Shown piece by piece: positions 238 through 37,683 of a DNA stretch of 64,000 bases (the stretch's first letter is position 1; every line of letters begins with the position of its first letter). Made by a program: the position numbers and the translations under genes. The stretch is taken from assembly GCA_035533755.1 (NCBI GenBank), contig DATLTC010000009.1, forward strand, positions 1 to 64,000, in the 5' to 3' direction. A model generated the notes under the pieces. It had not been told where the DNA came from. It did not search any database and was given only the letters and a program-made list of their open reading frames with translations. This DNA comes from Gemmatimonadaceae bacterium (GTDB lineage: Bacteria; Gemmatimonadota; Gemmatimonadetes; Gemmatimonadales; Gemmatimonadaceae).

Positions 238-239
238 GC

Positions 240-2289: not shown

Positions 2290-2331
2290 TGGGGCAAACG
2301 TGCGGCCGCCCGATGCGATCCCGGCCTCCGG

Positions 2332-2337
2332 TATATT
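2332..2337 (+). promoter_or_regulatory. Possible -10 box of a leaderless hemW promoter
   Basis: TATATT lies 5 bases before the GTG start of hemW in the short gap after dprA. No good -35 is visible 16-18 bases upstream, so this is suggestive only. The same hexamer is used before hrcA and tRNA-Gly in this window. Confidence 0.35.
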
Positions 2338-2342
2338 CCGGT

Positions 2343-3470: not shown

Positions 3471-3474
3471 ACTT

Positions 3475-4518
3475 ATGGCCGTCGAGCAACTGAGTCCCAG
3501 AGAACGGAGCGTGCTTGAAGCCGTGATCCGGACGTACGTCGAGACTGCCGAACCGGCGGGCTCGCGCACGCTCTCGCGGCGCTTCGGGCTGGGTGTGTCT
3601 CCGGCCACCATCCGGAACACGATGAGCGACCTCGAAGACAAGGGGTTCCTCGCTCACCCGCACACATCGGCGGGCCGGGTTCCCACGAACAAGGCCTACC
3701 GCGCGTTCGTGGATTCGCTGCTCGTGCGGAGCCCCGTGGCGGTCATCGAGCAAGGCCGTCTGGCCGAACAGATCGGGCGCGCCGACTCGCCCATCGAGAC
3801 GATCCTCCGCCGCGCGGCGCAGAGCCTGGGCGTGCTGGCGCAGGAGCTGGGCGTGGCGCTCGGGCCGAGTCTGGCCAAGACGCTGCTGCGCAGTCTCGAC
3901 CTGGTGCGCGTGAACAGCGAGCGGTTGCTGATGGTGCTGCAGCTTGAAGGCGGGGTGGCGCGCACGGTGTTCGTGGAGGTTCCGGGCGAGATTGCCGACG
4001 GCGTGCTCGCCGAGGTCACGGCGGTGCTCAACGAGCGGCTGGCCGGCCTGTCCCTCGATCAGATCAGCGCGTCGGTGGGTTCGCGGCTGCGCGACTCGTC
4101 GGCCGGCGCCGACGCGCGCGTGCTGCTCAACATCTTCGTGCAGGACGCGGAACTGCTGTTCGACGCCGCGCTGCCGCTCACCGAGGGCGCGGTGGTGCTC
4201 GGGCAGGCCTCGGTGCTCGCCGAGCAGCCGGAGTTCTCGGCGGCCGATCGCATGCGGCGCCTGCTCGACCTCACGCAGAGTCCGCAGTCGCTCGCCGACG
4301 CGATCCGCGCGCGGCCGCACGCCCCCGGCATCTCGATCACGATCGGAACCGAGCATGCCGATCCGCGACTCGAGGAGTTCACCGTGATCACGGCGGAGTA
4401 CCACGCCGGCTCGCTCGCCGGCGTGATCGGCGTGATCGGCCCCACGCGCATGTCGTACGACAAGGTGATCGCGCTGGTGTCGCATACCTCGCAACTGCTC
4501 ACCGACCTGCTCGACTGA
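3475..4518 (+). CDS. hrcA: Heat-inducible transcription repressor HrcA
   Basis: HrcA represses chaperone genes by binding CIRCE operators and responds to free GroEL. The 347-residue product has the N-terminal winged helix (about 1-75) with SPATIRNTM and the conserved HPHTSAGRVP segment, followed by the GAF-like HrcA domain and a C-terminal region with GPTRMSYDK. Length matches the family (about 340-350). It starts 4 bases after hemW, from its own promoter, and leads directly to dnaJ 9 bases downstream. No CIRCE site lies in front of it, so its targets (likely groESL or grpE-dnaK) would be elsewhere. Confidence 0.95.
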   Translation: MAVEQLSPRERSVLEAVIRTYVETAEPAGSRTLSRRFGLGVSPATIRNTMSDLEDKGFLAHPHTSAGRVPTNKAYRAFVDSLLVRSPVAVIEQGRLAEQIGRADSPIETILRRAAQSLGVLAQELGVALGPSLAKTLLRSLDLVRVNSERLLMVLQLEGGVARTVFVEVPGEIADGVLAEVTAVLNERLAGLSLDQISASVGSRLRDSSAGADARVLLNIFVQDAELLFDAALPLTEGAVVLGQASVLAEQPEFSAADRMRRLLDLTQSPQSLADAIRARPHAPGISITIGTEHADPRLEEFTVITAEYHAGSLAGVIGVIGPTRMSYDKVIALVSHTSQLLTDLLD

Positions 4519-4527
4519 GATCCTTTC

Positions 4528-5667
4528 ATGGCTGATTTCTATTCCGTGCTCGGCGTGCCGCGCACCGCGTCGGACGACGACATCAAGAAGGCATATCGCA
4601 AGTTGGCGATGACGTACCACCCCGACCGCAACGCGGGGGCCAAGGACGCCGAGGAGAAGTTCAAGGAGATCACCGAAGCGTACGACGTGCTGCGCGATCC
4701 GCAGAAGCGCGCCGCGTACGACCGGTACGGCGAGGCGGGACTGCGCGGCGGCGGTGGCGGGGCCGGCTTCCATCACGTGGACCTCTCCGAAGCGCTGGGC
4801 ATCTTCATGCGCGACTTCGGGCTGGGCGGGTTCGAGGAGCTGTTCGGCGGCGGCGGCCGCTCGGGGGGCAGCGTTCGCACCGGCGCCGACGTGCGCATCG
4901 AGATTCCGCTCACGCTCGAAGAAGTGGCCGGCGGCGTCGATAAGAAGGTGGTGGCCAAGCTGCTCGATACCTGCGATCAGTGCAGCGGCACCGGTGCCGA
5001 ACCGGGCACGCGCGTGGAGACCTGCGCGAGCTGCGGCGGCGCCGGCGAAGTGCGGCGCGCGCAGCGCTCGTTCTTCGGCCAGTTCCTGACCGTGGTGCCG
5101 TGTCCCACCTGCAAGGGCGAAGGCACGATCATCCAGTCGCCGTGCAAGAAGTGCCGCGGCGAAGGACGCGTGCGCGGCGAGCGTGAGCTGGCCATCCAGA
5201 TTCCCGCCGGCGTGGCCACCGGCCAGTACATGACCATGCGCGGCATGGGGAATGCCGGGGCGCGCGGCGGCACGCGCGGCGACGTGCACGTGGTGTTCGA
5301 GGTGGCGGAGGATCCTCGCTTCGAGCGCGACGGCGAGGATCTCTACACCGAGGTGCTGGTCACCTATCCGCAACTCGTGCTCGGCGCCGACATCCTGGTG
5401 CCCACCGTCGCGTCGAGCGTCTCGCTGCGCGTGCCGGCCGGCACGCAGAGCGGTCAGGTGTTCCACCTCAAGGGGCGCGGCCTCCCGCGGGTGAATGCCG
5501 GCGGCACCGGCGACCTGCACGTGCGCGTGCAACTCTGGACGCCCGATCGGCTCACCGACGACGAGGAGCGGATCATCACGGAACTCGGCACCGTGCAGAA
5601 GAGCGTGCCGATGGGTGGTCGGGAGAAAGGCTTCTGGAAGAAGATGAAAGAAGCGCTGGGCGCGTGA
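4528..5667 (+). CDS. dnaJ: Chaperone protein DnaJ
   Basis: DnaJ is the co-chaperone that stimulates DnaK ATPase. The 379-residue protein begins with a J domain holding HPD at 31-33, then a Gly-rich linker (about 70-115). Four CxxCxGxG zinc repeats follow, starting at about residues 149, 166, 192 and 206, and then the substrate-binding C-terminal domains. This is a full type I DnaJ. It lies between hrcA and prmA, as in many hrcA-(grpE-dnaK)-dnaJ-prmA operons, but grpE and dnaK are missing here and must be located elsewhere. The stop overlaps the prmA start codon as GTGA. Confidence 0.96.
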
Positions 5668-6485
5668 GCTGGACCACCGTGCGGGTGCGCTCCCGCTCGC
5701 GCCGCGACGCCGTGCTGGCGGCGCTGTTCGGAGCCGGCGTGGGCGGCGTGCACGAGGACGGCGACAGCTTCGTCACCCAGGTGGACCACACGCTCGATGC
5801 CGTCGCGCTCACGGCCGCGGTCCGCGCGGCCGATCCCGCCGCGACGATCGAACTGGCGCCGCTCGACAACGTGGACTGGGCGGAGGAGTGGAAGCGCGGT
5901 GTGCGGGCGCATACGGTGGGCGCGCTCACGGTGGCGCCGCCGTGGCTGGCCGCGGCTTCCGACGGCGCGCGCACGATCGTGATCGAACCCGAGATGGCGT
6001 TCGGCACCGGCGAGCACGCCACCACGCGCGGGGTGCTGGCGCTGATGCAGGGCGTGGTGCGGGCCGGGGACCTGGTGGCCGATCTGGGGTCGGGGAGCGC
6101 CGTGCTCGCGATCGCCGCCGCCAAGCTCGGCGCGCGGGGCGTGGCCGCCATCGAGATGGACCCCGACGCGATCGGGAACGCGGAGGCGAACGTGGCTCGC
6201 AATGCGGTGGGTGATCGCGTGCGCGTGATCCTCGGCGACGCGGGGCAGCTCCTGCCGCTCGTCGCGCCGGTGCAGCTGGTGCTCGCGAACATTCTCTCGT
6301 CGGTGATCCGCCCGCTGCTGCCGGCGATCGGCGCTGCGCTGGCGCCCGGGGGGCACGCCATCTTCAGCGGCATTCTCCTCACGGAGCGCGACGAACTGTT
6401 GGCGGCGCTCGGGGCGTCGGGCTGGCGGGTGACCGCCGAACTCGTGGAGGACGCATGGTGGAGCGTGGCGGTGGCGCGACCGTAG
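5664..6485 (+). CDS. prmA: Ribosomal protein L11 methyltransferase PrmA
   Basis: PrmA methylates ribosomal protein L11 using S-adenosylmethionine. The 273-residue product has a short N-terminal substrate-recognition domain, the linker motif [20 protein letters not shown], and the Rossmann methyltransferase domain with [13 protein letters not shown] (near 139). NILSSVI is the later motif. The usual Gly-Ser-Gly of motif I is slightly altered (GSGSAV). GTG at 5664 overlaps the dnaJ stop by 4 bases, implying coupling. Order dnaJ-prmA-rsmE is a common conserved arrangement, which strengthens the call. Confidence 0.92.
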
Positions 6486-7186
6486 CGACCTTCTTTGTCG
6501 AGACCGCGCCGGTGATCGGTGCGGTCTTGGTGCTGGCCGAAGCGGCGGCGCGGCACGCGCGCGTGCGGCGGCTCGAGGCCGGCGACCCGGTGCGTCTGGC
6601 GGATGGGGCGGGCACGATCGCCGCGGGATCCATCACGCGGATGGACCACCGGGCCGTGGAGGTGTCGGTGACGGCGTGCGCGATGGTGGAGCGGGCGGCG
6701 CCGTTGACCCTGCTCGTGCCCGTGGCCGATCGCGACCGGATGCTGTGGCTGGCCGAGAAGGCCGCCGAATTCGGCGTCACGGCATGGCGGCCCGTGGTAT
6801 ATGCGCGCTCGCGGAGCGTCTCGCCGCGCGGAGAGGGCGCCGGGTTCGACGCCAAGGTCATGGCGCGAATGATCGGCGCGCTGGAGCAGTCGGGCGGGGC
6901 ATGGCTGCCCCGGATCCATGCGGCCTGCGGGCTCGATGCGGCGATCGATGCCTGCGGTTCCGCGCAGCGATTCGTGCTCCATGCGGGTGGCGCCGCGCTC
7001 ACCGCGCTGGGCCCGTTCACCGACACGGCGGTGGCGGTGGGGCCGGAGGGCGGCCTGGAGGCCGAAGAGCTCGCGCTGCTGGAGGCGCGCGGCTGGCGCG
7101 CCGCGTCGCTGGGGAATACTACTTTGCGATTCGAGACCGCGGGCGTCGCCGCGGCGGCGATCGTCCGCGCCACGCAGGGTCGCTGA
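6455..7186 (+). CDS. rsmE: 16S rRNA m3U1498 methyltransferase RsmE
   Basis: RsmE is a SPOUT methyltransferase acting on U1498 of 16S rRNA. The 243-residue product has the N-terminal PUA-like part (about 15-80) with the H-A-R-V-x-R segment, and the trefoil-knot domain. The knot holds AVGPEGGLE and LGNTTLRFETA, the latter a variant of the usual LG-x-x-ILR-x-ETA. Its start overlaps prmA by 31 bases. ATG 6455 is taken; in-frame starts slightly downstream are possible. Membership of the rRNA/ribosomal-protein modification pair with prmA is consistent. Confidence 0.92.
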   Translation: MVERGGGATVATFFVETAPVIGAVLVLAEAAARHARVRRLEAGDPVRLADGAGTIAAGSITRMDHRAVEVSVTACAMVERAAPLTLLVPVADRDRMLWLAEKAAEFGVTAWRPVVYARSRSVSPRGEGAGFDAKVMARMIGALEQSGGAWLPRIHAACGLDAAIDACGSAQRFVLHAGGAALTALGPFTDTAVAVGPEGGLEAEELALLEARGWRAASLGNTTLRFETAGVAAAAIVRATQGR

Positions 7187-7203
7187 TCGAACCGGGAGGC
7201 CGG

Positions 7204-7545
7204 ATGTCCGACAACTGTCTGTTCTGCCGCATCGCGCGGCACGAGATTCCGTCCGCGGTCGTGGTGGAGAACGAGCAGTACCTGGCGTTCCGCGACGTGC
7301 ACCCGCAGGCGCCGGTGCACATCCTGGTCATTCCCAAGGCCCACGTCGAATCGCTCAACGCGGTCGGCGATTTCGCGATCGTCGGCAAGATGACGCAGCT
7401 GGCCACCGAGATCGCGGAGCGGGAAGGCATCGCCGAGCGGGGGTACCGCGTGGTGATGAACACCAACGCCGACGGGGGGCAGTCGGTGTTCCACCTCCAT
7501 CTGCACCTGCTGGGCGGCCGGTCGCTGGGATGGCCGCCGGGGTGA
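7204..7545 (+). CDS. HIT-family (histidine triad) nucleotide-binding protein
   Basis: HIT proteins (HinT type) hydrolyse adenosine phosphoramidates. The 113-residue protein starts with the family-typical DNCLFCRI and ends with the catalytic histidine triad His97-x-His99-x-His101 in HLHLHLLGG. The start ATG has GGGAGG about 8 bases upstream. It follows rsmE by 17 bases and is the last gene of the hrcA operon. The kinase gene on the other strand ends 4 bases beyond its stop. Confidence 0.93.
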   Translation: MSDNCLFCRIARHEIPSAVVVENEQYLAFRDVHPQAPVHILVIPKAHVESLNAVGDFAIVGKMTQLATEIAEREGIAERGYRVVMNTNADGGQSVFHLHLHLLGGRSLGWPPG

Positions 7546-7549
7546 GGTG

Positions 7550-9454
7550 CTAGGCCGGCGTGCTCGCGATCTCGCGCGGGAACGCCAGGTGCCGTTCGAT
7601 CTCGTCGCGCGCCGCGAGCAGCCGCTCGACCTCGCGCGACACCTCGGCGGCGATGTTGAGGTGCGTGGTGAGCCCCTCGACCGTGGCCGACCCGGCGTGC
7701 AGGCGCAGGAGATTGAGCCGGATGGTCTCGAGCGCGCCCACGGCCTCGGTGAGTTTGTCGTGGATGGTGTCGCGCATGGCGCGGATGTCGGCGTAGGCCT
7801 CGGCGGCGCCGCCGTCGGGCGCGGCGGCCAGCGCTTCCTGCAACTCGTTGTACTGCGCGCGCAGGCGCTGCGCGTCGTCCTGGAGGCGCGTGAGCACGCG
7901 GGGCAGGTTGCCCAGCGCCGCGCGCGTCTCCCGGGGCAGGGTCTCGAACAGGTGCTCGGCGGCCAGGCCGAGCGCGAGTTCGGTGGCGCGGTGCGTCATC
8001 ACCGACGTCACCTGCTGCCGGCCCGTGAACCGCCGGGCGACGCCGAACAGCAGGCGTCCGATGCGACCCGTCCATACGCGTTTCCAGAAGGCGCTGTCGG
8101 CGTCGTCGCGTTCCTGGACGGCGGCCAGGTACCCGATGGTCGCGAAGAAGGTGCCGATGCTCGAAATGGAGAACACCGGGATCCCCAAGTAGGGGAACTC
8201 GAACGGCCGAAACGCGGAGGCCAAGATACCCGCCGCCGACGCCCCCGCGGTGATGCCGAATGCCTGCGCCGCCCGGCGGAGGAGTTTCTCGTACCGCGCC
8301 AGCCCCAGCCCATATTGGCCCGCGCGCTCCTCGCGCGCCTGGTCCAGTTCCGCCTGAAATGCCGGACCGATGTCGGACTGCGCGAACCCCAGCCGCAGCA
8401 TGCGCCGCGCCGCGTTCACGAGATACGCGATGGGCGTGCCGATGCCGACCACGGCCATGGTCGTGTACGCCGCCGTGGGCCCGAACAGATACGACACGCC
8501 CACCGTCGCGCCGAGCAGCGCGAACGGAAAGAGAATCGTGCCCGGCCCGTTCAGGCGGCCCCAGTCCTTGGCAAAGGCGCGCATCGCCACCGGCAGCTCG
8601 CGCCGTTGCTCCAGCGCCGCGTCCAACTGCTCGGCCAGCGCCTCGCCGGTGGGCGGGCGGTGCGCCGGGTCCTTGGCCAGGCAACGGTCCACGAGCGCGG
8701 CGATCTTTCGTGATACGGGAATACCCATGGACGACAGGGCCGGTGCCGGCTCTGTCACCTGCCGGGCCAGCACCTCGGTGGGGGTCTTGCCCTCGAACGG
8801 CAGTCGTCCGGTGAGCGCGTAGAACGTCGTCGCGCCGAGCCCGTAGAGATCGCTCCGGCCGTCCAACTCCTGGCCCAGCACCTGCTCCGGGCTCATGAAT
8901 TCCGGCGTGCCCGAGATGCCGTCGCCCGCGGCGTCGGCGCCCACGGCGGCGATGCCGAAGTCTGCCACCAGCACCCGGCCCGTGCCCGACTCGAGCAGGA
9001 TGTTGTCGGGCTTCACATCGCGATGCACGAGTCCGTGGGAATGCGCGTGGGCGAGTGCCCAGGCCGCGTCGCGCATGATGCGGGCCGCGTCGGAGCTCGA
9101 CAGGGGGCCGTGGGTGCGCACGCGCTCGGCCAGCGTCTCGCCGTCCACGTAGGCCATGGCGTAGAACACGAAGCCGCCACTGTCGTCCACGGCGTGGATC
9201 GGGATGATGTTCGGGTGCGACAGCTTGGCCGCGAGTCGGGCCTCGCGCAGGAAGCGGTCGCGGAGGGCGGGGTCGCTGGCCTTGTCCGGCGGCAGGAGTT
9301 TGATGGCCACCGGCCGGTCGAGGTGCACCTCGCGGGCCAGGTAGACGATCCCCATGCCGCCGCGGCCCAGTTCGTGGTCGATCGAATAGCGGCCGGCCAG
9401 CGCGAACTGGAACGCAACGAACAGCGGATCGGCGGGGGAGCCGGGCGTGCTCAT
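7550..9454 (-). CDS. Membrane Ser/Thr protein kinase with C-terminal coiled coil
   Basis: This is a eukaryote-like (Hanks) kinase. The kinase domain fills about residues 20-285, with G-loop GRGGMGIVYLA (30-40), Lys52, HRD (144-146), DFG (165-167) and activation-loop GTPEFMSPEQ. All catalytic residues are present. After the kinase come about four hydrophobic segments in two hairpins (about 300-350 and 430-460) and then a charged, heptad-rich tail of about 100 residues. There is no PASTA or other recognised sensor domain. The ATG at 9454 is preferred over GTG/ATG codons upstream because TATACT lies 5 bases before it. It diverges from rpsU. Substrate unknown. Confidence 0.88.
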   Translation of the reverse strand: MSTPGSPADPLFVAFQFALAGRYSIDHELGRGGMGIVYLAREVHLDRPVAIKLLPPDKASDPALRDRFLREARLAAKLSHPNIIPIHAVDDSGGFVFYAMAYVDGETLAERVRTHGPLSSSDAARIMRDAAWALAHAHSHGLVHRDVKPDNILLESGTGRVLVADFGIAAVGADAAGDGISGTPEFMSPEQVLGQELDGRSDLYGLGATTFYALTGRLPFEGKTPTEVLARQVTEPAPALSSMGIPVSRKIAALVDRCLAKDPAHRPPTGEALAEQLDAALEQRRELPVAMRAFAKDWGRLNGPGTILFPFALLGATVGVSYLFGPTAAYTTMAVVGIGTPIAYLVNAARRMLRLGFAQSDIGPAFQAELDQAREERAGQYGLGLARYEKLLRRAAQAFGITAGASAAGILASAFRPFEFPYLGIPVFSISSIGTFFATIGYLAAVQERDDADSAFWKRVWTGRIGRLLFGVARRFTGRQQVTSVMTHRATELALGLAAEHLFETLPRETRAALGNLPRVLTRLQDDAQRLRAQYNELQEALAAAPDGGAAEAYADIRAMRDTIHDKLTEAVGALETIRLNLLRLHAGSATVEGLTTHLNIAAEVSREVERLLAARDEIERHLAFPREIASTPA

Positions 9455-12681: not shown

Positions 12682-14504
12682 TCCCCGACGACGTCGTGGA
12701 GCGCGTGGCCGAGGCGGCCGACATCGTGCAGATCATCGGCGAGCACGTGAAGCTCAAGCGCGTGGGCACGCGATGGCGCGGGCCCTGTCCGTTCCACCAG
12801 GGCACGCACCCGAACTTCTCGGTCACGCCGGGCGGCGGCTACCGGTGCTTCTCGTGCGGCGAGACGGGCAGCGTGTTCACGTTCGTGCAGAAGCGGCTGG
12901 GGCTCGACTTTGCCGAGGCGGTGAAGTACGTGGGCGAGAAGTCGGGGGTCGAGGTGCGCGAGATGGCGCGGCGGCGCGAAGGGCCGGACCCCCGCGAGCC
13001 CCTGTGGGAGGTGAATGCGGCGGCGGCCGACTATTTCCGCCGCATGCTGTGGGAGAACGAGATGGGCGCCGCCGCCCGCGAGTATCTGGCGCAGCGCGAC
13101 GTGAACCAGGAGCAGGCCGACCCGTTCTCCCTGGGCTTCGCGCCGCGCGAGATCGGGCTCATGCGTGCCCACCTGCAGACGCTGGGCTTCGACGACGCGC
13201 GCCAGCTCGAAGCCGGATTGCTCGTGAAGAAGGAGGACGTCGAGGAACCGCGTCCGCGGTTCCGGGGGCGGCTGATGTTCCCGATCCTCGACGTGCAGGG
13301 GCGGGTGATCGCGTTCGGCGGCCGGATCATCGGCCAGGGCGAGCCCAAGTATCTGAACTCGGCCGAGTCTCCCACGTTCGTGAAGGGCCGCACGCTCTAC
13401 GGCCTGTCATGGGCCAAGAATGCGATCCGTCGTACCGACCGCGTGATCCTCGTCGAGGGCTACTTCGACTGCGTGCGCCTGATGATGGCCGGACTGGACG
13501 AGGTCGTCGCCCCGCTGGGCACGGCCCTCACCGAGCCGCAGGCGGATCTCCTGCGCCGGTACACCAAGAACGTCTTCCTGCTCTACGACAGCGACAGCGC
13601 CGGGCTCAAGGCCACCTTCCGCGCCGGCGACGAACTGCTGCGCCTGGGGATGGCGGTGCAGGTCGTGACCCTGCCCGACGGCGAGGACCCCGACACGTTC
13701 GTCAAGGCGCACGGCAAGGACCGGCTCGAGGAACACATCACCCACGCGATCGACGTCTTCGAACGGAAGATCCAGATTCTCGAACGGCACGGGTCGTTCG
13801 CCGATCTTCGGCGCAAGCGCCAGGCGCTGGACAAGCTGCTGCCCACGCTGCGCGCCGTGTCCGATCCGATCACGCGGGACCTGTACGTGGCCCGCACGGC
13901 CGAGGTGGCGGGCGTGAGCCGCGAACTGCTGGAGCGGGAGATCGGGCATGCCGCCGACACGTCCCGTGGGTCGCCGCCGGAGCCGCCGCCGCCGGATGAT
14001 TTCGACACGTCCCGCCAGCCCGAACCGCCGCGGCGCATGCCGCGCCGTGACGTCCGGCGGACCCCAGGGGTTAGGACAGAGTGGGAACTCGTGCATGTGA
14101 TGTTGCATCAACGGACGTATGTTGAATCGGTGGCGGAGCGCATCGGACCCGAGGAATTCCGGGAACCCGCGCTGCGCGCGATCTACGCCAGGCTCGTCTC
14201 CACCTCGGCCGATGCCACGGTGGACGACCTCGCGGCGGGACTCGATGAGGATGCGAGCGCGATGCTCGAATCGCTTCTCGCCGAGGTGGGAGGGTTGGAG
14301 GATGTCGGACGTACCATCCAGGATTGCTTGGCCACGCTGCAGATCCAGCAGCTGCATGAAGCGATGCGGGAAATCGACCGCCAGCTTCCGCTGGCGGCAG
14401 GCTCGGAGCAGGACGAGCTGATGCTGCGCAAGAAACAACTGTCGGACGAGTGGCGCTCACTGGGCGGGCGCGGCTGGAAGTCGTTCGGCGGGACACGCTC
14501 ATGA
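12678..14504 (+). CDS. dnaG: DNA primase DnaG
   Basis: DnaG makes RNA primers at the replication fork. The 608-residue protein has the N-terminal zinc finger (Cys37, His40, Cys57, Cys60), with Gln-Gly in place of the frequent Glu-Lys after CPFH. The TOPRIM catalytic core follows with VILVEGYFD and LLYDSDSAG, and GEPKYLNS precedes them. The linker near 430-465 is Pro/Arg-rich, and the last part is a helical domain probably binding DnaB. ATG 12678 overlaps the mutS2 stop. No rpoD or dnaB lies next to it here, unlike the classic rpsU-dnaG-rpoD order, although rpsU is 3 kb upstream. Confidence 0.95.
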   Translation: MIPDDVVERVAEAADIVQIIGEHVKLKRVGTRWRGPCPFHQGTHPNFSVTPGGGYRCFSCGETGSVFTFVQKRLGLDFAEAVKYVGEKSGVEVREMARRREGPDPREPLWEVNAAAADYFRRMLWENEMGAAAREYLAQRDVNQEQADPFSLGFAPREIGLMRAHLQTLGFDDARQLEAGLLVKKEDVEEPRPRFRGRLMFPILDVQGRVIAFGGRIIGQGEPKYLNSAESPTFVKGRTLYGLSWAKNAIRRTDRVILVEGYFDCVRLMMAGLDEVVAPLGTALTEPQADLLRRYTKNVFLLYDSDSAGLKATFRAGDELLRLGMAVQVVTLPDGEDPDTFVKAHGKDRLEEHITHAIDVFERKIQILERHGSFADLRRKRQALDKLLPTLRAVSDPITRDLYVARTAEVAGVSRELLEREIGHAADTSRGSPPEPPPPDDFDTSRQPEPPRRMPRRDVRRTPGVRTEWELVHVMLHQRTYVESVAERIGPEEFREPALRAIYARLVSTSADATVDDLAAGLDEDASAMLESLLAEVGGLEDVGRTIQDCLATLQIQQLHEAMREIDRQLPLAAGSEQDELMLRKKQLSDEWRSLGGRGWKSFGGTRS

Positions 14505-14520
14505 TCGGGGAGACCGGCTC

Positions 14521-15225
14521 GTGCATCAGGACGTCGTGATTCTGTTGGAGGTGCAGCAAGAAGACGCGGTGATCTTCGCGCTCGAGGACAAGCTCGCCGC
14601 CCTGGCGCCGCGATTGGCGGCCCTGGAGGCCGACACGCAGCGGGCCGAGCAGGCGCTGGCCGAGGCCACCGCCGCCACCGAGGGAGAGGAGAAGCGCCAG
14701 CGGGACATCCAGTTCCGCATCGAGCAGCACCGGGAGTTGCTCAAGCGCCACGAACAGGTGCTGAACACGGTCACCTCCCCGCGCGAAGCCGCCGCGGCGG
14801 TGGCCCAGACCGAGCAGGCGCGCCGCATGCTCGCCGACGACGAACGCGAGATCGGGGCCATCAACACCCGGCTCGTCGAACTGCGGGCGCACGCCGCCGA
14901 CCGCGCCAAGGGCGTCGAGGCCACGCGCGCGGCGCAGGCCGAGGCCCGCGAGACGCTGGCGTCCGATCGCAAGGCGTTGACGGGCGAACTCGAGGGGGCG
15001 CGCGGCCAACGCGACCAGAAGGCGGCCCGGATCTCGCGGTCGCTCATGGCGCGCTACGATCGCATCCAGAGACGGCAGCGCTCGGTGGCCCTGTTCGCGC
15101 TCCATGGCCCATCGTGCGGCAACTGCGACACCATGATCCCCATGCAGCGGCGCAACGTGATGCTGGGCACGGGCGCGCCCGAGGTCTGCGAGGGGTGCGG
15201 CGTGCTCCTCTACGCGGGCGATTGA
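14521..15225 (+). CDS. Coiled-coil protein with C-terminal C4 zinc ribbon
   Basis: A 234-residue protein. Residues about 10-180 are almost entirely charged helix, predicted to form two antiparallel coiled-coil arms. The end carries CGNC (199-202) and CEGC (223-226), a C4 zinc ribbon. This is the architecture of the widespread zinc-ribbon family sometimes annotated as nucleic acid-binding; its function is not established. GTG 14521 has GGGGAGA about 8 bases upstream. It sits 16 bases after dnaG and just before recJ, hinting at nucleic-acid work, but that is inference from neighbours. Confidence 0.85.
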   Translation: MHQDVVILLEVQQEDAVIFALEDKLAALAPRLAALEADTQRAEQALAEATAATEGEEKRQRDIQFRIEQHRELLKRHEQVLNTVTSPREAAAAVAQTEQARRMLADDEREIGAINTRLVELRAHAADRAKGVEATRAAQAEARETLASDRKALTGELEGARGQRDQKAARISRSLMARYDRIQRRQRSVALFALHGPSCGNCDTMIPMQRRNVMLGTGAPEVCEGCGVLLYAGD

Positions 15226-15227
15226 TG

Positions 15228-15256
15228 TTGTTGGGGCGCCGGACCAGGCCTAACTT
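15228..15256 (+). promoter_or_regulatory. Promoter of recJ operon
   Basis: TTGTTG (15228-15233), a 17-base spacer and TAACTT (15251-15256) lie just after the zinc-ribbon gene. The recJ GTG at 15263 is 6 bases beyond the -10, so the expected start site coincides with the start codon. Confidence 0.6.
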
Positions 15257-15262
15257 TCCGGC

Positions 15263-16984
15263 GTGACTCCTCCTGACACCCGGCTGCGCCCTCGCAGCCG
15301 CTGGGTGATGCCGCCCGACCCTGATCCCGATGCCGTGGCGGCGCTCGCGGAAGCGCTGCGCCTTCCGGACGCCGTGTGCCGGCTGGTCGTGGGCCGCGGC
15401 TACGCCGATCCGGAGCTTGCCAAGCGGTTCCTCCGGCCACGGCTGGAACACCTGCACGAGCCGTCCACCCTCCTCGACCTCGATCGAGCGGTCGAACGCC
15501 TGGTCCAGGCCATCCGGGCCGGCGAGACCATCCTCGTCCATGGGGACTACGACGTGGACGGGATGTGCTCCACGACGATCATGGTCAAGACCCTGCGCTC
15601 GCTCGGCGGCCGCGCCGAGCCCTTCATCCCGCAGCGGCTCAAGGACGGCTACGATCTCACCGACGTCGGCGTGCGCGCCGCCCTGGACATCGGCGCGCGG
15701 GTCGTGGTCACCTGCGACTGCGGCACCAGCGCCGTGGGGCCGGTGACCGCGCTGCAGGACGCCGGCGTGGACGTGATCATCACGGACCACCACCTGCCCG
15801 GCGGCCCACTGCCGCCGGCCTTCGCCGTGATCAATCCCAAGCGGGCCGGCTGCCCCTCGGTGGACAAGGACCTGGCCGCCGTCGGCGTGGCGTTCAAGCT
15901 CGCGCTCGCCCTCGTGCGCGCGTTCGGCGCCAGCGAGAACCGCGTGCTCGAGCTGCTCGACCTCGTGGCCCTGGCCACGGTGGCCGACATCGCGCCGCTG
16001 CGGGGCGAGAACCGGGTGCTCGTGCGCTACGGACTGCGGTTGCTCTCGGACACCCGCAACGTTGGCCTGCGCGCCCTCATCCGCGCGGCGGGCCTCGACC
16101 ACAAGCCCCTCACCGCCGGCCGCGTGGGGTACATCCTCGCGCCGCGGCTCAACGCCGTCGGACGCCTCGACCGGGCGCTGCGCGGCGTCGAACTGCTCAT
16201 GACCGAGAGCGAGGCCGACGCCAACCGGCTGGCGCGGGACTTCGAGGAACTGAACGCGCGGCGCCAGGAGATCGATCGCCGGACGCTCGACGAGGCGCGG
16301 CGCATGGTCGAGCGCCTGGACCTCGACGCGACGTACGGCCTCGTGCTGGCGGGTGAGGGATGGCACGCCGGCGTGATCGGCATCGTGGCGTCGCGCCTGG
16401 TCGAGGAGTTCGGGCGTCCCACGATCCTGATCGCGCTCGACGGGGACGAAGGCAAGGGATCGGGGCGGTCCATCTCGCCGTTCGACCTCCATGCCGGAAT
16501 CGGCGAGTGCCGCGACCTGCTCATCCGGTTTGGCGGCCACCGCGCCGCGGCCGGCGTGACGATCGCTCGCGACCAGGTGCCGGCGTTCGCCGAGCGCTTC
16601 AACGCCGTGGCGCGGCGGTCGTTGTCGGCCGACGACCTGGTGCCGGAGATCCGCGCCGATCTCGAGCTGCCGTTCGATGCGGCCACCGAGGATCTGGAGG
16701 CGCTGCTGCGCCACCTGGAGCCGTTCGGCGCCGGCAATCCCGCGCCGGTGCTCGTGTCGCGCGGCGTGACGCTGGCGGGGCCGCCGCGCACGGTGGGCAA
16801 GGACGGGCTTCGGCTCCTGCTCAAGAGCGGCGGCCACTCACTGACGGCGATCGGATGGGGCATGGGCCCGCGGCGGGGCGAGCTGGACGTGGGACGTCCG
16901 GTGGACGTGGCGTTCCGCCTCGATCGCGACGAGTGGAACGGGGAGTCGCGCCTGCAGGCACGCCTCGCGGACTTCCAGGGCTGA
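15263..16984 (+). CDS. recJ: Single-stranded-DNA-specific exonuclease RecJ
   Basis: RecJ degrades single-stranded DNA 5-prime to 3-prime in recombination and repair. The 573-residue product has the DHH phosphoesterase motifs: HGDYDVDG (near 94), the metal-binding CDCGTS, and TDHHLP (near 174). A DATVADIAPL-type segment (here LATVADIAPL), the DHHA1 motif GSGRSI, and the C-terminal OB domain containing FGAGNPAPV follow. The GTG start is supported by the promoter box 6 bases upstream. The next gene starts 2 bases after its stop. Confidence 0.95.
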   Translation: MTPPDTRLRPRSRWVMPPDPDPDAVAALAEALRLPDAVCRLVVGRGYADPELAKRFLRPRLEHLHEPSTLLDLDRAVERLVQAIRAGETILVHGDYDVDGMCSTTIMVKTLRSLGGRAEPFIPQRLKDGYDLTDVGVRAALDIGARVVVTCDCGTSAVGPVTALQDAGVDVIITDHHLPGGPLPPAFAVINPKRAGCPSVDKDLAAVGVAFKLALALVRAFGASENRVLELLDLVALATVADIAPLRGENRVLVRYGLRLLSDTRNVGLRALIRAAGLDHKPLTAGRVGYILAPRLNAVGRLDRALRGVELLMTESEADANRLARDFEELNARRQEIDRRTLDEARRMVERLDLDATYGLVLAGEGWHAGVIGIVASRLVEEFGRPTILIALDGDEGKGSGRSISPFDLHAGIGECRDLLIRFGGHRAAAGVTIARDQVPAFAERFNAVARRSLSADDLVPEIRADLELPFDAATEDLEALLRHLEPFGAGNPAPVLVSRGVTLAGPPRTVGKDGLRLLLKSGGHSLTAIGWGMGPRRGELDVGRPVDVAFRLDRDEWNGESRLQARLADFQG

Positions 16985-31371: not shown

Positions 31372-32148
31372 ATGGATCCGGTGTATGCGGTTCTGCAGGC
31401 AGGGACGTCGTCCCTGTCGTTTGGCTTCGTCGATTACCTGACGACCATCAGCGCCATCGGCGTGATCACGATGGCGCTCATCCAGACGGCCAAGGACATG
31501 CTCCCCATTCGCCGCTGGTACCAGCGCCGGCGGTTCCGCGCCTGGCTGGCGGACGGGGTGCGCGAAGCGGCCGTGCCCGATCGGTCGGCGGTCCTGTTCG
31601 GGCAGCCCGCCGGTCGCCAACAGCCTGATGCCGCGGCCGCCGAAGCGCGGCTCGTGTCGCTGGCCACCGACGGCGACGCCCACGCCCTGTACGATCTGCC
31701 CATCGAGCAGATGTGCGGCCAGATCAATGCCGCGCTCCAGGTGGTGCTGGAGTATCCCGCGGACGATCCGAATCTCGTGGCGATCGTCGGTTCGCGCGCC
31801 AGCGCCGCCGATCTGGCGATGCTGATCGGCGTGGCCAACGGGGCCATGAATTCCGCGACCGCGCGCACGCCGGAGGTGAGCGCCGCCAAGGCCCGCGTGA
31901 TGCACCAGTTCCAGCGGGCCATCGACGCGTTCCAGATCGCCGTGAGCTACCGGTGGAAGATGTCGTTGCAGATCGCCTCGTTGGTGCTGTGCGGCCTGCT
32001 CACCTACGCGGCGTTGCTACTGCGCTTCCACGTAGGCACGAGTTACGTGGGCGGCGTGGGGGCGGTGGTGATCGGCGCGGTGCTGGCGGGATTCCTGGCG
32101 CCCGTGGCCAGGGATCTGACGGCGGCCGTGCAGGGGCTGCGGAAGTAG
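31372..32148 (+). CDS. Uncharacterised three-TM membrane protein
   Basis: I do not recognise the family. The 258-residue product has one hydrophobic segment near the N-terminus (about 19-40) followed by the basic stretch RRWYQRRR. A soluble middle of about 140 residues is predicted mostly helical, and two hydrophobic segments near the C-terminus (about 197-217 and 225-246) end in a short cytoplasmic-type tail. GGAGG sits 8 bases before the ATG. It is 73 bases after zapA and only 2 bases before the hydrolase gene, so the two form an operon and probably act together. Confidence 0.75.
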   Translation: MDPVYAVLQAGTSSLSFGFVDYLTTISAIGVITMALIQTAKDMLPIRRWYQRRRFRAWLADGVREAAVPDRSAVLFGQPAGRQQPDAAAAEARLVSLATDGDAHALYDLPIEQMCGQINAALQVVLEYPADDPNLVAIVGSRASAADLAMLIGVANGAMNSATARTPEVSAAKARVMHQFQRAIDAFQIAVSYRWKMSLQIASLVLCGLLTYAALLLRFHVGTSYVGGVGAVVIGAVLAGFLAPVARDLTAAVQGLRK

Positions 32149-32150
32149 CC

Positions 32151-33050
32151 GTGACGGCCGCGCTGCCGGAACTGAGCGTGCGCCAGCCCGCGTGCGACTC
32201 GGGCGGGCCGGTGGTGGACGTGCACGGCACGCTGCCGCCCGCCGGCGGCGCCGTGTTGCTGCTCGTGCACGGGTACGCCAACTCGGCCGCCGCGGCCCGC
32301 GACTCGTGGCGCGCGTTTCTGGACGGCATCGCGGCCGTCCAGATCGGCGGCTGGATGCCGCGCAATCCCACGGGCGTGCAGTGGCCGGGCGACGAGCCGA
32401 TCGCCGGGCTCAACCAGGCGTCATATCCGCTCAAGATCGGCGTGTCACGCGACGCCGCGCGGCGGATGGACGTCTACCTGCGCGCGATGGCCGGACCGGG
32501 CGGCGCACCGCTCACGCTGTCCGTCGTTGCGCACTCGCTGGGTTGCCGCCTGGCCGCGGAGCTGCTCGAATGTCTCGCGCAGCCCCCGGCGCATTCCGTG
32601 GTCGTGGATCGCGTGGTGTTCATGGCGGCAGCGGTGCCCACCGACCGCGTGGATCGCGGCCAGGAACTGCGCGGGGGCGTCGATTGGGCCGGCGGGATCT
32701 GCGCCCTGTATTCCGAGGGTGACCCGGTGCTGCGCCTCGCATTCCCGATCGGCGAGACGGTGGGCGGCGATGGGTTCTTCCCGACCGCGGTGGGGCGTCA
32801 CGGCGGCCCTGGGGCCACCTGGATGGTCACGCAGCAGATGGCGCACGGCGGGAACCTGTACGCGCACAGCGACTACTGGGCGGGCATCGAGTCCGCGGCC
32901 GCCGCGGCTGCCTTCTTCTGGATTCCCGTCGCGGCATCCGTCGCTGCGCGGGGCCTGCCGGCGCATGGGCTGCCGGAGGTGACCGCGATTCCCATTCGCG
33001 GCACGCCCAGTCGCGCGATCGCGGCGCGGCCGTTGGCGGCCGGCGGCTGA
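32151..33050 (+). CDS. Alpha/beta hydrolase (DUF900-like), function unknown
   Basis: A 299-residue protein with the alpha/beta-hydrolase oxyanion motif HGY (40-42) and nucleophile elbow AHSLG with Ser129. A C-terminal NLYAHSDYW may supply the catalytic His. The region LLLVHGYANSAAAA and VVAHSLGCRLAAELL resembles DUF900-type hydrolases. No signal peptide is evident. GTG 32151 lies 2 bases after the membrane-protein gene stop. Its substrate is unknown; a lipid or ester substrate at the membrane would fit its partner but is only inference. It meets korB tail to tail with a 6-base gap. Confidence 0.78.
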   Translation: MTAALPELSVRQPACDSGGPVVDVHGTLPPAGGAVLLLVHGYANSAAAARDSWRAFLDGIAAVQIGGWMPRNPTGVQWPGDEPIAGLNQASYPLKIGVSRDAARRMDVYLRAMAGPGGAPLTLSVVAHSLGCRLAAELLECLAQPPAHSVVVDRVVFMAAAVPTDRVDRGQELRGGVDWAGGICALYSEGDPVLRLAFPIGETVGGDGFFPTAVGRHGGPGATWMVTQQMAHGGNLYAHSDYWAGIESAAAAAAFFWIPVAASVAARGLPAHGLPEVTAIPIRGTPSRAIAARPLAAGG

Positions 33051-33056
33051 GGGCGG

Positions 33057-34112
33057 CTACCGATACTCGTTCTGCAGTTCCTGGAGCGCGGCGTTGCCGG
33101 GGCAGAGCGTCGAGTAGGGCAGTTCCACCAGCGGTTGCTGCACGGTGCGGCTCAGCGCGTGCATGTCCTTGGCGCCCTCGTCCAGGTAGAGCAGCCCGGT
33201 GACCACTTCGCCGCGTTCCTGATGCGCGCGCACGTGCGCGTACGCGGCATCGCGGTTCGTGGGATCGTACGCCTCGTCGGTTTTCCGGAACCGCACCACG
33301 CTGCCGTCGTGCATCGTCACCGACATCGCGGCGCCGGCGCCGTCCGGCGTCCTGATCTCCTTGCGCATCGGCACGAAGTCCACGGGGGCCAGATCCTCGT
33401 AGTGCTCGCGCGTGTACCGGTAGCTCTTGGTGGAGCCCACATGATCGTTGAAGCTCACGCACGGCGAGATGACGTCGATGAGGGCGAATCCATTGTGCCG
33501 CAGGCCCGCCTTGAGCATCGGCACCAGGTGGGCCTTGTCGCCCGAGAATCCCCGGGCCACGAAGGTGGCGCCGAGACTGAGCGCCAGGAGCACCGGATCG
33601 ATGGGCCGCTGGTCGTTGGATTCGCCCTTCTTGGACGTGGAGCCGACGTCGGCCGACGCCGAGAACTGCCCCTTGGTGAGCCCATACACGCCGTTGTTCT
33701 CCAGCACGTAGAGCAGATTGACGTTGCGGCGGATGGCGTGGCTCAACTGGCCCAGGCCGATCGACAGCGAGTCGCCGTCGCCCGAGATGCCGATGTACGT
33801 GAGGCCGCGGTTGGCCGCGTTGGCGCCCGTGGCCAACGCGGGCATGCGGCCGTGCACGCCGTTGAAGCCGTGCGACTGGCGCATCATGTACGCGGTCGTC
33901 TTGGATGAACACCCGATGCCGCTCATCTTGGCGGCGCGATGGGGCGGAACATCCAGCTCCCAGAACGCCTGGATGAGCGCGGCGGTCACCGAATCGTGCC
34001 CGCATCCGGCGCACAGCGTGGACATCGATCCCTCGTAGTCGCGCCGCGTGAGACCCAGCGCGTTCTTGGGCAGCGAGGGATGGGTGACCGGAGGTTTGGT
34101 GATCGACGTCAT
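33057..34112 (-). CDS. korB: 2-oxoacid:ferredoxin oxidoreductase beta subunit (KorB-like)
   Basis: The thiamine-diphosphate half of a 2-oxoacid:ferredoxin oxidoreductase. The 351-residue protein has CAGCGH (34-39), GIGCSSKT, the TPP/Mg motif GDGDS (111-115) with NNGVYG (139-144), and SPCVSFND. This is the two-subunit (alpha-gamma fused, beta) type, most like 2-oxoglutarate enzymes, although 2-oxoacid choice cannot be read from sequence. The start codon overlaps the korA stop by 4 bases. The usual separate delta ferredoxin subunit is absent; Fe-S centres in the upstream gene may take that role. Confidence 0.9.
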   Translation of the reverse strand: MTSITKPPVTHPSLPKNALGLTRRDYEGSMSTLCAGCGHDSVTAALIQAFWELDVPPHRAAKMSGIGCSSKTTAYMMRQSHGFNGVHGRMPALATGANAANRGLTYIGISGDGDSLSIGLGQLSHAIRRNVNLLYVLENNGVYGLTKGQFSASADVGSTSKKGESNDQRPIDPVLLALSLGATFVARGFSGDKAHLVPMLKAGLRHNGFALIDVISPCVSFNDHVGSTKSYRYTREHYEDLAPVDFVPMRKEIRTPDGAGAAMSVTMHDGSVVRFRKTDEAYDPTNRDAAYAHVRAHQERGEVVTGLLYLDEGAKDMHALSRTVQQPLVELPYSTLCPGNAALQELQNEYR

Positions 34113-35908
34113 ACCGCGGCTCCCTGCAGGTGTTGCGTCACGCCGTTCACCACTGTCCGCGCGGTGAGCGGCAGCCCGCCGTAATCGAGAATGGGAATCA
34201 TGTGGTCGCGCGGCACGCCGGTCTCGAGGGTGAGCAGCGAGCGGAGCTGCGCATCGCGGTTCTGCTCCACCACGAACACGAGTTCGTGCGCATTGAGGAA
34301 CTCCGCGACCGGTGCATCGAACGGGAACCCGCGGATGCGCATGTAGTCGGTCGCGATGCCCTGGGCCCGGAGGCGGTCCACGGCTTCGAGCACGGCGGCG
34401 TGGCAGCCGCCGATCGAGACGATGCCGATCTCGGCGTTGGCCTGGCGCCGGAATTCCGGCGCCGGCACGGCGCTGGCGGCCCCGTTGATCTTGCGCGCCA
34501 GCCGGTCCACCACCTCCAGGTACTCGGCGGAATCCTCGGTGTACACGCCGTGCTTGTCGTGTCCCGATCCGCGGGTGAAGTACGCGCCCTTCGGGTGCAC
34601 GCCGGGCAGCGTCCGGGCGGTGATCCCGTCGCCGTCCACGTCGACATAGCGGGAGAACTTGGTGATCCGTTCCAGGTCGTCGGCCGACAGCACCTTGCCG
34701 CGGTCGGGCACATAGGCATCGTCCCACGTGAGGCGCGGCACCATCCAGTCGTTCATCCCGATGTCGAGGTCGGAGACCACGAACACCGGCGTCTGATAGC
34801 GCTCGGCGAGGTCGAAGGCATCGCGCGCCATGTAGAAGCACTCCGCCGGATCGGACGGGTAGAGCGCGATGTGCTTGGTGTCGCCGTGCGAAGCGTAGGC
34901 GATGGCCATCAGATCGCCCTGCTGCGTGCGCGTGGGCATGCCGGTGGACGGCCCCGTGCGCTGGATGTCGAAGAAGACCGACGGGACCTCGGCGTAGTAC
35001 GCCAGCCCGATGAACTCCTCCATCAGCGAGATGCCCGGGCCGGAGGTGGAGGTGAAGGCGCGGGCGCCCGCCCAGCCGGCGCCGATCACCATGCCGGCGG
35101 CGGCCAACTCGTCCTCGGCCTGGATCATGGCGTATCGACGTTCGCCGGTGGCCGCGTCCACGCGGTACTGCTCGCAGAACCCCTTGAAGCCTTCCATGAG
35201 CGACGTGGACGGGGTGATCGGATACCAGGCCCCGACCGTGGCGCCGGCGTAGACGCAGCCGAGCGCGGCGGCCGTATTGCCGTCGATGACGATCGCGCCG
35301 GCGGTTTCGTGCATCCGCTCGAGCCGGAACGGAAGCGGGTGCGCAAAATGCGCGGTGGCGTAGTCGTGGCCGAGCGCGATGGCCCGGAAGTTCGCGTCGA
35401 GCAGCGAGCGCTTCTTGGAGAACTTCTCGCGCAGCATCTCGCCGATCACGTCCATGTCGATGTCGAGCAGCGCGGCGAGCGTGCCGGCGTATGCGATGTT
35501 CCGCAGTAGCGTGCGGTTGCGGTCGCCTTCGAAGTTCTGCACGCACAGCTCGCCGAACGGCACGCCGAGGATGGTGATGTCGTCGCGCCGCAACTCGGGG
35601 TCCAGCGGCCAGGTGGCGTCGTACACCAGGTATCCGCCCGGCCGCACCGACGCCACGTCCCGGGCGTAGGTGGACGTGTTGAGCGCCACCATCAGGTCGA
35701 TCTGCTCGGGGCGCGCGGTGTAGCCGTCCTTGCTCACCCGGATTTCGTACCAGGTGGGAAGTCCCTGGATGTTGGACGGGAAGATGTTCTTGCCGGTGAC
35801 CGGGATCCCCATCCGGAAGATGGCCTGCATGAGGAGGCTGTTGGCGCTCGCCGAGCCCGTGCCGTTGACGGTGGCCATCTTGAAGGCGAAATCGTTGACG
35901 CCGCTCAT
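34109..35908 (-). CDS. korA: 2-oxoacid:ferredoxin oxidoreductase alpha subunit (gamma-alpha fusion, KorA-like)
   Basis: A 599-residue fusion. Residues about 10-195 are the gamma domain, starting NGTGSASANSLLMQA. From about 205 on is the alpha (pyrimidine-binding) part with YPITPS (229-234), QAEDELAAAGMVIGA and TSTSGPGISLMEE, followed by the C-terminal domains with VSIGGCHAAV. This order matches 2-oxoglutarate/2-oxoacid:ferredoxin oxidoreductases such as mycobacterial KorA. ATG 35908 overlaps the stop of the FAD/Fe-S gene upstream, so all three genes are coupled. Confidence 0.92.
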   Translation of the reverse strand: MSGVNDFAFKMATVNGTGSASANSLLMQAIFRMGIPVTGKNIFPSNIQGLPTWYEIRVSKDGYTARPEQIDLMVALNTSTYARDVASVRPGGYLVYDATWPLDPELRRDDITILGVPFGELCVQNFEGDRNRTLLRNIAYAGTLAALLDIDMDVIGEMLREKFSKKRSLLDANFRAIALGHDYATAHFAHPLPFRLERMHETAGAIVIDGNTAAALGCVYAGATVGAWYPITPSTSLMEGFKGFCEQYRVDAATGERRYAMIQAEDELAAAGMVIGAGWAGARAFTSTSGPGISLMEEFIGLAYYAEVPSVFFDIQRTGPSTGMPTRTQQGDLMAIAYASHGDTKHIALYPSDPAECFYMARDAFDLAERYQTPVFVVSDLDIGMNDWMVPRLTWDDAYVPDRGKVLSADDLERITKFSRYVDVDGDGITARTLPGVHPKGAYFTRGSGHDKHGVYTEDSAEYLEVVDRLARKINGAASAVPAPEFRRQANAEIGIVSIGGCHAAVLEAVDRLRAQGIATDYMRIRGFPFDAPVAEFLNAHELVFVVEQNRDAQLRSLLTLETGVPRDHMIPILDYGGLPLTARTVVNGVTQHLQGAAV

Positions 35909-37683
35909 GACGCGCTCCGGCCGGCGTACGCCGTGATGAGGTCGAACCGCTGCATGTCCCAGGCCGCCGTGGGGCAGCGTTCGGCGCACAGGCCGCAGTG
36001 CAGGCACACGTCCTCGTCCTTCACCATGAGACGGCTGGTCTGTGGCAGCGGGGCAGAGACGTACAGGTCCTGCTGCAGGTTGACGGCCGGCGCCGAGAGG
36101 CGGGTGCGCAGATCCGCCTCGGTGCCGCCGTCGGGGGTGATCGTGAGACAGTTCACGGGGCACACGTCAACGCAGGCGTCGCACTCGATGCACAGCGCGG
36201 CGGAGAACTGCGTCTCGATGTCGCAGTTGAGACAGCGTTGCACCTCGCGCGCCGTCTGCTCCGGCGTGAACCCGAGCTCGACCTCCACCGACACGTCGGC
36301 AAAGCGCTTCACGAGCTCCTCGTGCTGCATGGCGGCGCGCGGCGACGGATTGTAATCGTTGTGGTAGCTCCAGGCGTGCATCCCCATCTTGGAGCTGACG
36401 AGGTTCATGCCGTCGGCCGGCCGCTCGGCAACCGGCACGCTCTGGCAGTGGTTGTGGATCGAGATCGCCGCCTGGTGGCCATGCTCCACGGCCCAGATGA
36501 TGTTCTCGGGGCCCCACGCCGCGTCGCCGCCAAAGAACACGCCGGCGCGCGTGGACTGGAAGGTCTTCCGGTCCACGATCGGCATGTCCCACTTGGCATC
36601 GAAGTCGATGCCGAGGTCGCGTTCGATCCAGGGAAACGCATTGTCCTGGCCGATGGCGAGAATCACGGCGTCGCAGGGGATGATCACGGTGTCGAGCAGC
36701 GTGCTCGTCTGACGGCCGTTCTCTTCGGTCCACTGCAGGCGCTCGAACTCCATCCCCACGAGCCGGCCCTGCTCGACCACGAAGCGCTTGGGGGCATGGT
36801 TCTCGATGATCTCGATGCCTTCCTCTTCGGCATCCTCGAGTTCCCAGGGCGACGCTTTGAAATAACGGCGGGAGCGGCGGGCCACGACCTTGATGTCCGT
36901 GCCGCCCAGTCGCCGGGACGTGCGGCAACAGTCCATCGCCGTGTTGCCGACGCCGATGATGAGCACGCGGGGTTCGATCTTCTCGATGTGACCGAAGTGC
37001 ACGGACCCCAGCCACTCGATGCCGATGTGCACGCTGCCGGTGTCCCAGCGTCCCGGGATGTCCAGTTCCTTGCCTCTGGGCGCGCCGCTGCCTACGAACA
37101 CGGCGTCGTAGCGTTCGTCGAGGAGCGCCTTCATGCTCTCGACCGGCGTGCCGTACCGGATGTCCACGCCCATGTCCAGGATGTTGCCCACCTCGTCGTC
37201 GAGCACGTGGGCGGGCAGCCGGAACGCCGGAATGTTGAAACGCATCAACCCGCCGGCCTGCGTGAGCTTCTCGTAGATCACGCACTCGTAGCCCAGCGGC
37301 ATGAGATCGTTGGCCACGGTGAGCGACGCCGGACCGGCACCCACGAGCGCCACGCGCTTGCCGTTCTTCTGTTCGGGGATTGCCGGCAGACGGTCGTGGA
37401 TGTCGTCGCGGAGATCAGCGGCCACGCGTTTGAGGCGGCAGATGGCCACCGGCTTGCCGTCCACGCGGCCGCGGCGGCACGCGGGTTCGCAGGGCCGGTC
37501 GCAGGTGCGACCGAGGATGCCGGGAAACACGTTCGACTCGCGGTTGAGCATGTACGAGTCCGTGTACCGGCCCTGCGCGATCAATCGGATGTATTCGGGT
37601 ACGTTCGTGTGGGCGGGGCAGCCCCACTGACAGTCGACGACTTTATGGTAGTAACGCGGGTTGGCGACGTCCGTCGGGTGCAT
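35905..37683 (-). CDS. GltD-like FAD/NAD(P)-binding oxidoreductase with ferredoxin domain
   Basis: A 592-residue protein. The N-terminus has Cys18, Cys22 and Cys61, Cys65, Cys69, like the Fe-S region of glutamate-synthase small subunits. A first Rossmann fold has GAGPAS (115-120) for FAD and a second has GVGNTAMD for NAD(P)H. FGGDAAWGPENIIWAVEHG closes the FAD site. The last 110 residues hold CIECDACVDVCP and CLHCGLCAERCP, two [4Fe-4S] clusters. It likely passes electrons between NAD(P)H and the KorAB pair. ATG 37683 has GAGGAA upstream; a GTG at 37728 would add 15 residues. Confidence 0.85.
   Translation of the reverse strand: MHPTDVANPRYYHKVVDCQWGCPAHTNVPEYIRLIAQGRYTDSYMLNRESNVFPGILGRTCDRPCEPACRRGRVDGKPVAICRLKRVAADLRDDIHDRLPAIPEQKNGKRVALVGAGPASLTVANDLMPLGYECVIYEKLTQAGGLMRFNIPAFRLPAHVLDDEVGNILDMGVDIRYGTPVESMKALLDERYDAVFVGSGAPRGKELDIPGRWDTGSVHIGIEWLGSVHFGHIEKIEPRVLIIGVGNTAMDCCRTSRRLGGTDIKVVARRSRRYFKASPWELEDAEEEGIEIIENHAPKRFVVEQGRLVGMEFERLQWTEENGRQTSTLLDTVIIPCDAVILAIGQDNAFPWIERDLGIDFDAKWDMPIVDRKTFQSTRAGVFFGGDAAWGPENIIWAVEHGHQAAISIHNHCQSVPVAERPADGMNLVSSKMGMHAWSYHNDYNPSPRAAMQHEELVKRFADVSVEVELGFTPEQTAREVQRCLNCDIETQFSAALCIECDACVDVCPVNCLTITPDGGTEADLRTRLSAPAVNLQQDLYVSAPLPQTSRLMVKDEDVCLHCGLCAERCPTAAWDMQRFDLITAYAGRSAS

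Follow-up and report, generated by a model that had tools for sequence, protein, structure and literature searches.

Where do the electrons of 2-oxoacid oxidation go when the genes of a KorAB-type oxidoreductase sit behind a gene for a GltD-like flavoprotein? This is the question raised by an operon in a 64,000-nucleotide stretch of Gemmatimonadaceae DNA (contig DATLTC010000009.1), hereafter called the window. Our analysis suggests that its three genes very probably encode one CoA-acylating 2-oxoacid:NAD(P)+ oxidoreductase, most likely a 2-oxoglutarate:NADP+ oxidoreductase (KGOR) of the kind described for Azoarcus evansii. Gene set, gene order, overlaps, domains, conserved cofactor residues and linkage are read from the sequence, and from these we infer the complex, its electron path and its oxidative direction. 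The operon spans window positions 33057-37683 on the minus strand, and its genes follow each other in the order GltD-like, KorA, KorB:

37683-35905 (35905..37683), minus strand: GltD-like protein of 592 aa and 65.9 kDa, an oxidoreductase with FAD and Fe-S clusters that is predicted to hand the electrons to NAD(P)
35908-34109 (34109..35908), minus strand: KorA, fused gamma and alpha subunits, 599 aa, 65.4 kDa
34112-33057 (33057..34112), minus strand: KorB, subunit with TPP and a single [4Fe-4S] cluster, 351 aa, 37.8 kDa

The letters ATGA form a 4-base overlap at both the GltD-like/KorA and the KorA/KorB junction, so that the overlaps claimed in the earlier note are exact to the base; the same note had remarked that the usual separate ferredoxin subunit is missing, and indeed there is no separate ferredoxin gene within the cluster. 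Promoter and terminator scans at the operon gave no signal exceeding that of shuffled sequences. Its neighbours in the window (genes for RNase Y, FolD and exonuclease VII, and for two proteins without Pfam match) give no functional clue to the operon. Two adjoining genes at 31372-33050 on the plus strand, convergent with the operon, encode proteins of 258 aa and about 300 aa without Pfam match, the second of which, judged by eye, resembles an alpha/beta hydrolase.

The GltD-like protein carries the Pfam domains Fer4_20, Pyr_redox_2 and Fer4_7 and contains 22 cysteines in total. Its parts are the following:

37438..37632, minus strand: N-terminal half of a GltD-type Fe-S module with C18, C22, C61, C65, C69 and C82; matches the N-terminal domain of NfnL/NfnA
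36436..37362, minus strand: binding domains for FAD and NAD(P) (residues ~108-416; PF07992), with a fold match to GltD, NfnL, DPD and thioredoxin reductase
36850..36888, minus strand: VVARRSRRYFKAS, the loop that follows the second GxGNTAMD motif and a candidate site for the 2'-phosphate of NADP
36214..36306, minus strand: permuted CxxC helix (residues 460-490, with C484/C487), which completes the N-terminal Fe-S module according to the NfnL alignment
35962..36192, minus strand: 2[4Fe-4S] ferredoxin domain at the C-terminus, with C498/501/504/508 and C560/563/566/570 (PF12838)

Pfam domains and cysteine motifs, among them the two CxxCxxCxxxCP motifs of the ferredoxin domain, agree with the initial description of a GltD-like protein with N-terminal cysteines and a C-terminal two-cluster ferredoxin. 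This reading of the cysteines required one refinement, in that C484 and C487 lie outside the ferredoxin and match the N-terminal CxxC of NfnL. In phmmer alignments, residues 460-490 correspond to NfnL residues 19-48 (5jca, 5vj7), that is, to the CxxC helix located just upstream of the first cluster cysteines of NfnL, and residues 17-413 correspond to the remainder of NfnL. By this split alignment the protein is a circularly permuted GltD/NfnL, its helix shifted to a position after the flavin domain. The helix takes the same post-flavin place in NfnA/NfnABC (9n5u, 9bov) and in StnABC (8oh5), which argues that the GltD-type two-cluster module is complete; structural comparison with the NfnABC/StnABC chains covers model residues 17-490, with Z of ~30, rmsd of ~5 and 424-436 residues aligned. 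The six N-terminal cysteines, C484/C487 and all eight ferredoxin cysteines are invariant in 40/40 aligned homologues. At the position aligned with the NfnL glutamate that we take to be the fourth ligand of a cluster, the protein has a lysine, and the invariant C82 lies three residues away, suggesting that C82 may replace the glutamate as cluster ligand. The AlphaFold model has a mean pLDDT of 69, and much of its Fe-S parts falls below 50, which makes it too weak to judge cluster geometry or the role of C82. By fold and sequence, the nearest solved relatives are the NAD(P)-dependent NfnA, NfnABC, StnABC and NfnL. Judged by its conserved residues, the GltD-like protein holds every redox site needed to link KorB to NAD(P).

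The two other genes had been taken for the gamma-alpha fusion and the beta subunit of a 2-oxoacid oxidoreductase, an assignment borne out by POR and POR_N domains in KorA, where gamma and alpha are fused, and by a TPP_enzyme_C domain (PF02775) in KorB, whose cluster cysteines are C34, C37, C68 and C218. KorA scores 559.2 bits against TIGR03710 (2-oxoacid:acceptor oxidoreductase alpha; cut-off 482.75), and KorB gives a strong score of 211.8 bits, below the cut-off of 261.9, against TIGR02177 (PorB/KorB beta). The nearest solved relatives are two-subunit enzymes: KorA aligns to 5b46_A and 6n2n_A, KorB to 5b48_B and 6n2n_B, 6n2n being presumably the Magnetococcus enzyme. KorA keeps the YPITP motif and the carboxylate-binding Arg and has Ser in place of the alpha-subunit Asp468, and KorB keeps the beta-subunit Lys49 and Leu123, all of them residues whose roles were described in the broad-range Sulfolobus OFOR (5b46/5b48; PMC5020499). 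Taken together, the pocket residues would fit 2-oxoglutarate or a broad substrate range, without deciding between them. The same genome encodes a second OFOR cluster (L180, G000:C49, positions 3-8192, minus strand), composed of a KorA of 632 aa, a KorB of 318 aa, a 334-aa protein without Pfam match, an RnfB-like Fe-S protein of 284 aa and a long PFOR-like protein that runs off the contig. This second KorAB has no adjoining GltD-like gene, in contrast to the operon, and its cluster looks like a ferredoxin-type module.

Does the GltD-like gene belong with korAB? Among 60 relatives, the GltD-like orthologue occurs in 19 (own genome included) at an identity of at least 69%, the KorA orthologue occurs in the same 19 at no less than 67%, and the other relatives have neither, their best counterparts being distant homologues at ~35% identity or less. 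KorA adjoins the GltD-like gene in all 18 relative regions fetched, followed by KorB in every case except one, in which the contig stops short. Scanning GTDB genomes yielded 580 candidate relatives, from which 80 loci were kept, mostly from Alpha- and Betaproteobacteria (Bradyrhizobium, Phenylobacterium, Neoroseomonas, Roseateles, Aromatoleum buckelii); KorA is directly downstream of the GltD-like gene in 80/80, and KorB is there wherever the contig reaches. The linkage survey proposed beforehand as a check on the pairing thus found no exception, be it in the family (19/19, with joint absence elsewhere) or beyond. Strand and order are identical in the 83/83 complete triplets, which fall into two phylum-level groups. 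In the trees of all three genes, built from complete triplets, the window's lineage is a clade with support 1.0, and distances correlate among the trees at r 0.95-0.96 overall and 0.70-0.82 within groups. In a set of 49 long proteobacterial loci, the GltD-like gene, KorA and KorB are the only genes common to nearly all, and nothing else, ferredoxin genes included, is common to most. The arrangement is far beyond chance, and its unvarying linkage, the agreement of the trees and the lack of any other shared gene indicate that the three genes move together as a unit.

Some loci deserve a comment of their own. The largest gap among complete triplets, ~2.4 kb between KorA and KorB, is found in a Rhodopseudomonas MAG (L154, ~13584 to 16033). 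About ten Bradyrhizobium-type loci (L120, L135, L143, L155 and others) have, by eye, pqqB-, pqqC- and pqqE-like genes upstream of the triplet. Three Variovorax megaplasmids also match, and the two that were checked both carry the triplet.

The enzyme would probably work as follows. KorA and KorB would decarboxylate the 2-oxoacid on TPP to yield the acyl-CoA, and the electrons would pass from the [4Fe-4S] cluster of KorB to the GltD-like protein, which would stand in for the ferredoxin subunit and receive them at its C-terminal 2[4Fe-4S] domain. From there they would reach FAD through the two GltD-type clusters, one of them completed by the permuted C484/C487 helix, and FAD would finally deliver a hydride to NAD(P)+. 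Running in the oxidative direction, the complex would make NADPH alongside 2-oxoglutarate dehydrogenase, which makes NADH and is likewise encoded in the genome. The earlier note had proposed just such a role, a GltD-like protein that replaces ferredoxin and couples 2-oxoacid oxidation to NAD(P)H, and the linkage, the predicted redox sites and the A. evansii precedent speak for it. One of its arguments carries little weight, since it is well established that OFORs of alpha-beta type can do without an intramolecular ferredoxin (PMC5020499), which makes the missing ferredoxin subunit weak evidence for coupling. On the whole the idea of coupling appears well supported, yet it was already known.

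That the GltD-like protein should be an ordinary small subunit of glutamate synthase, or a stand-alone NAD(P)H oxidoreductase that is a mere neighbour of korAB, is very hard to credit: its core domains are those of GltD, but it has an extra ferredoxin domain and its linkage to korAB knows no exception. The GltD families themselves were rejected, all scores lying below cut-off (256.6 vs 471.75 bits for TIGR01316, 155.2 vs 447.7 for TIGR01317 and 201.2 vs 482.95 for TIGR01318). It is the genome's only Fer4_20 protein, and a search for the glutamate synthase large subunit (PF01645) gave no match in this 98%-complete genome and matches in 14/14 control genomes; a genome devoid of the large subunit argues against an ordinary GltD. 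As a separate matter, nitrogen assimilation may differ in an organism whose genome lacks a PF01645 protein. A wider role, in which the GltD-like protein also reduces free ferredoxin from NADPH or from KorAB, so that the complex becomes a hub between NADPH, 2-oxoacid and ferredoxin, seems unlikely to us: several other Fe-S proteins and the ferredoxin-type OFOR cluster in the same genome would suit it, but no ferredoxin gene is common to the loci examined, and Bradyrhizobium, Phenylobacterium and many other carriers are not known for anaerobic ring reduction.

As for the substrate, we lean towards 2-oxoglutarate as the main substrate; a complex with the same NAD(P) link that acts on another 2-oxoacid (of the pyruvate, branched-chain or aryl-glyoxylate type), 2-oxoglutarate being minor, is the less probable reading. 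SucA, the E1 component of 2-oxoglutarate dehydrogenase, scores over cut-off in 57/60 relatives, own genome included, which speaks for another acid; the Lys and Leu that KorB shares with the broad-range Sulfolobus enzyme point the same way, as does phenylglyoxylate:NAD+ oxidoreductase, which, as presented in PMC5109826, is an NAD-linked OFOR for another acid. Against this stand the sequence of KorA, far closer to TIGR03710 and to the Magnetococcus and Sulfolobus enzymes than to the PadG, PorA or IorA models, and the fact that the single relative of the kind to have been studied takes its name from 2-oxoglutarate. Identity with PadG and PadI can be dismissed for KorA and KorB at 60 vs 700 and 23.7 vs 700 bits, far below the cut-offs. 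SucA in so many relatives also rules out replacement of 2-oxoglutarate dehydrogenase as a general explanation of the operon, there being no sign that the dehydrogenase has been replaced. Nor does NADPH supply in place of glucose-6-phosphate dehydrogenase account for its distribution, zwf being found in 14/19 carriers vs 11/17 non-carriers of the family, without association; the transhydrogenase PntB is nearly universal.

As for the pyridine nucleotide, the loop behind the second GxGNTAMD motif comes in an ARRSR-type and an RSGFE-type, cleanly divided between lineages, possibly a switch between NADP and NAD or in affinity. In 38/38 sequences of the window's lineage it reads xARR[SGT]R. Among proteobacterial sequences the motif was found in 79, where it is of the VRSGF or VRSGY type, with VRSTF in one. 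NADP(H)-bound NfnL (5jca) carries YRRTRKEM at the loop position, and its RRTR makes NADP the better guess for the window's lineage, even if the motif alone is no proof, RR being present in NfnABC as well. NADP rather than NAD is the probable acceptor, and the proteobacterial form of the loop may differ in affinity or in cofactor.

What, then, is new? This kind of enzyme has been on record since 2003, for an anaerobic bacterium, and the same gene set is present, unstudied, across many other bacteria. As far as found in the literature, NADP-linked KGOR biochemistry comes from one anaerobic aromatic degrader, and the triplet occurs in a large set of proteobacterial loci, many of them from Bradyrhizobium, with the GltD-like gene present in 177 of the 395 sampled genomes of the window's phylum. 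The record of Aromatoleum aromaticum EbN1 annotates the triplet genes as 'FAD-dependent oxidoreductase' and '2-oxoacid:ferredoxin oxidoreductase', and metabolic models built on such annotation would send the electrons to ferredoxin, although these probably end up in NAD(P)H. Recognising the triplet alters the redox bookkeeping of the TCA cycle and provides a candidate second route of 2-oxoglutarate oxidation where 2-oxoglutarate dehydrogenase is dispensable. More speculative, and doubtful in our eyes, is an alternative to 2-oxoglutarate dehydrogenase that would tolerate oxygen, make NADPH and be in wide use by aerobes under particular conditions, or a bifurcating/confurcating 2-oxoacid oxidoreductase built on an NfnA-like permuted module.

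Among known systems, the two-subunit OFOR/OGOR enzymes (Magnetococcus 6n2n, Sulfolobus 5b46/5b48, Hydrogenobacter KorAB and M. tuberculosis KorAB) share the gamma-alpha fusion of KorA and a KorB with TPP and one [4Fe-4S] cluster; they differ in using free ferredoxin or an unknown acceptor, and no GltD-like third subunit is known for them. In M. tuberculosis extracts, the korAB-dependent 2-oxoglutarate activity reduced neither NAD+ nor NADP+ (PMC2773412), which is what a requirement for a dedicated flavoprotein would predict. NfnABC/StnABC (9bov, 9n5u, 8oh5) have the CxxC element after the flavin domain, as the GltD-like protein does, but are subunits of electron-bifurcating transhydrogenases with other partners and no OFOR subunits; identity with them was rejected on length (592 aa vs chains of 947-1178 aa) and on the OFOR subunits encoded here instead. 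Phenylglyoxylate:NAD+ oxidoreductase PadEFGHI of A. evansii, from the same superfamily (Hirsch et al. 1998, as cited in PMC5109826), resembles the proposed enzyme in delivering the electrons of a 2-oxoacid to a pyridine nucleotide and, by that account, differs in its five genes, its use of NAD and its aryl substrate.

The closest likeness is to the KGOR of A. evansii, which is linked to NADP and one of whose subunits is homologous to GltD (Ebenau-Jehle, Boll and Fuchs 2003, doi 10.1128/JB.185.20.6119-6129.2003, as cited in PMC10134865). Physiology is expected to differ between the two. The comparison is drawn from the description of KGOR in that citing source and from the EbN1 triplet, so that orthology to the purified enzyme is indirect; Aromatoleum is, we assume, the genus that now also holds A. 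evansii. The EbN1 triplet, from a close relative of A. evansii, has the same genes, order and 4-base overlaps and is 57/53/57% identical to that of the window, with VRSGF in the loop where the window has ARRSR. It lies on plasmid 2 (NC_006824.1; L096 4890-9594), a conjugative plasmid, near trb genes, and adjoins acyl-CoA dehydrogenase genes and a CBS-domain gene. The hallmark of KGOR of the A. evansii type, a GltD-like FAD/Fe-S subunit whose gene stands together with those of KorA and KorB, is found in the window, and an NADP-linked 2-oxoacid oxidoreductase with a GltD-homologous subunit, as the A. evansii enzyme is described in the citing source, is what we propose for the operon.
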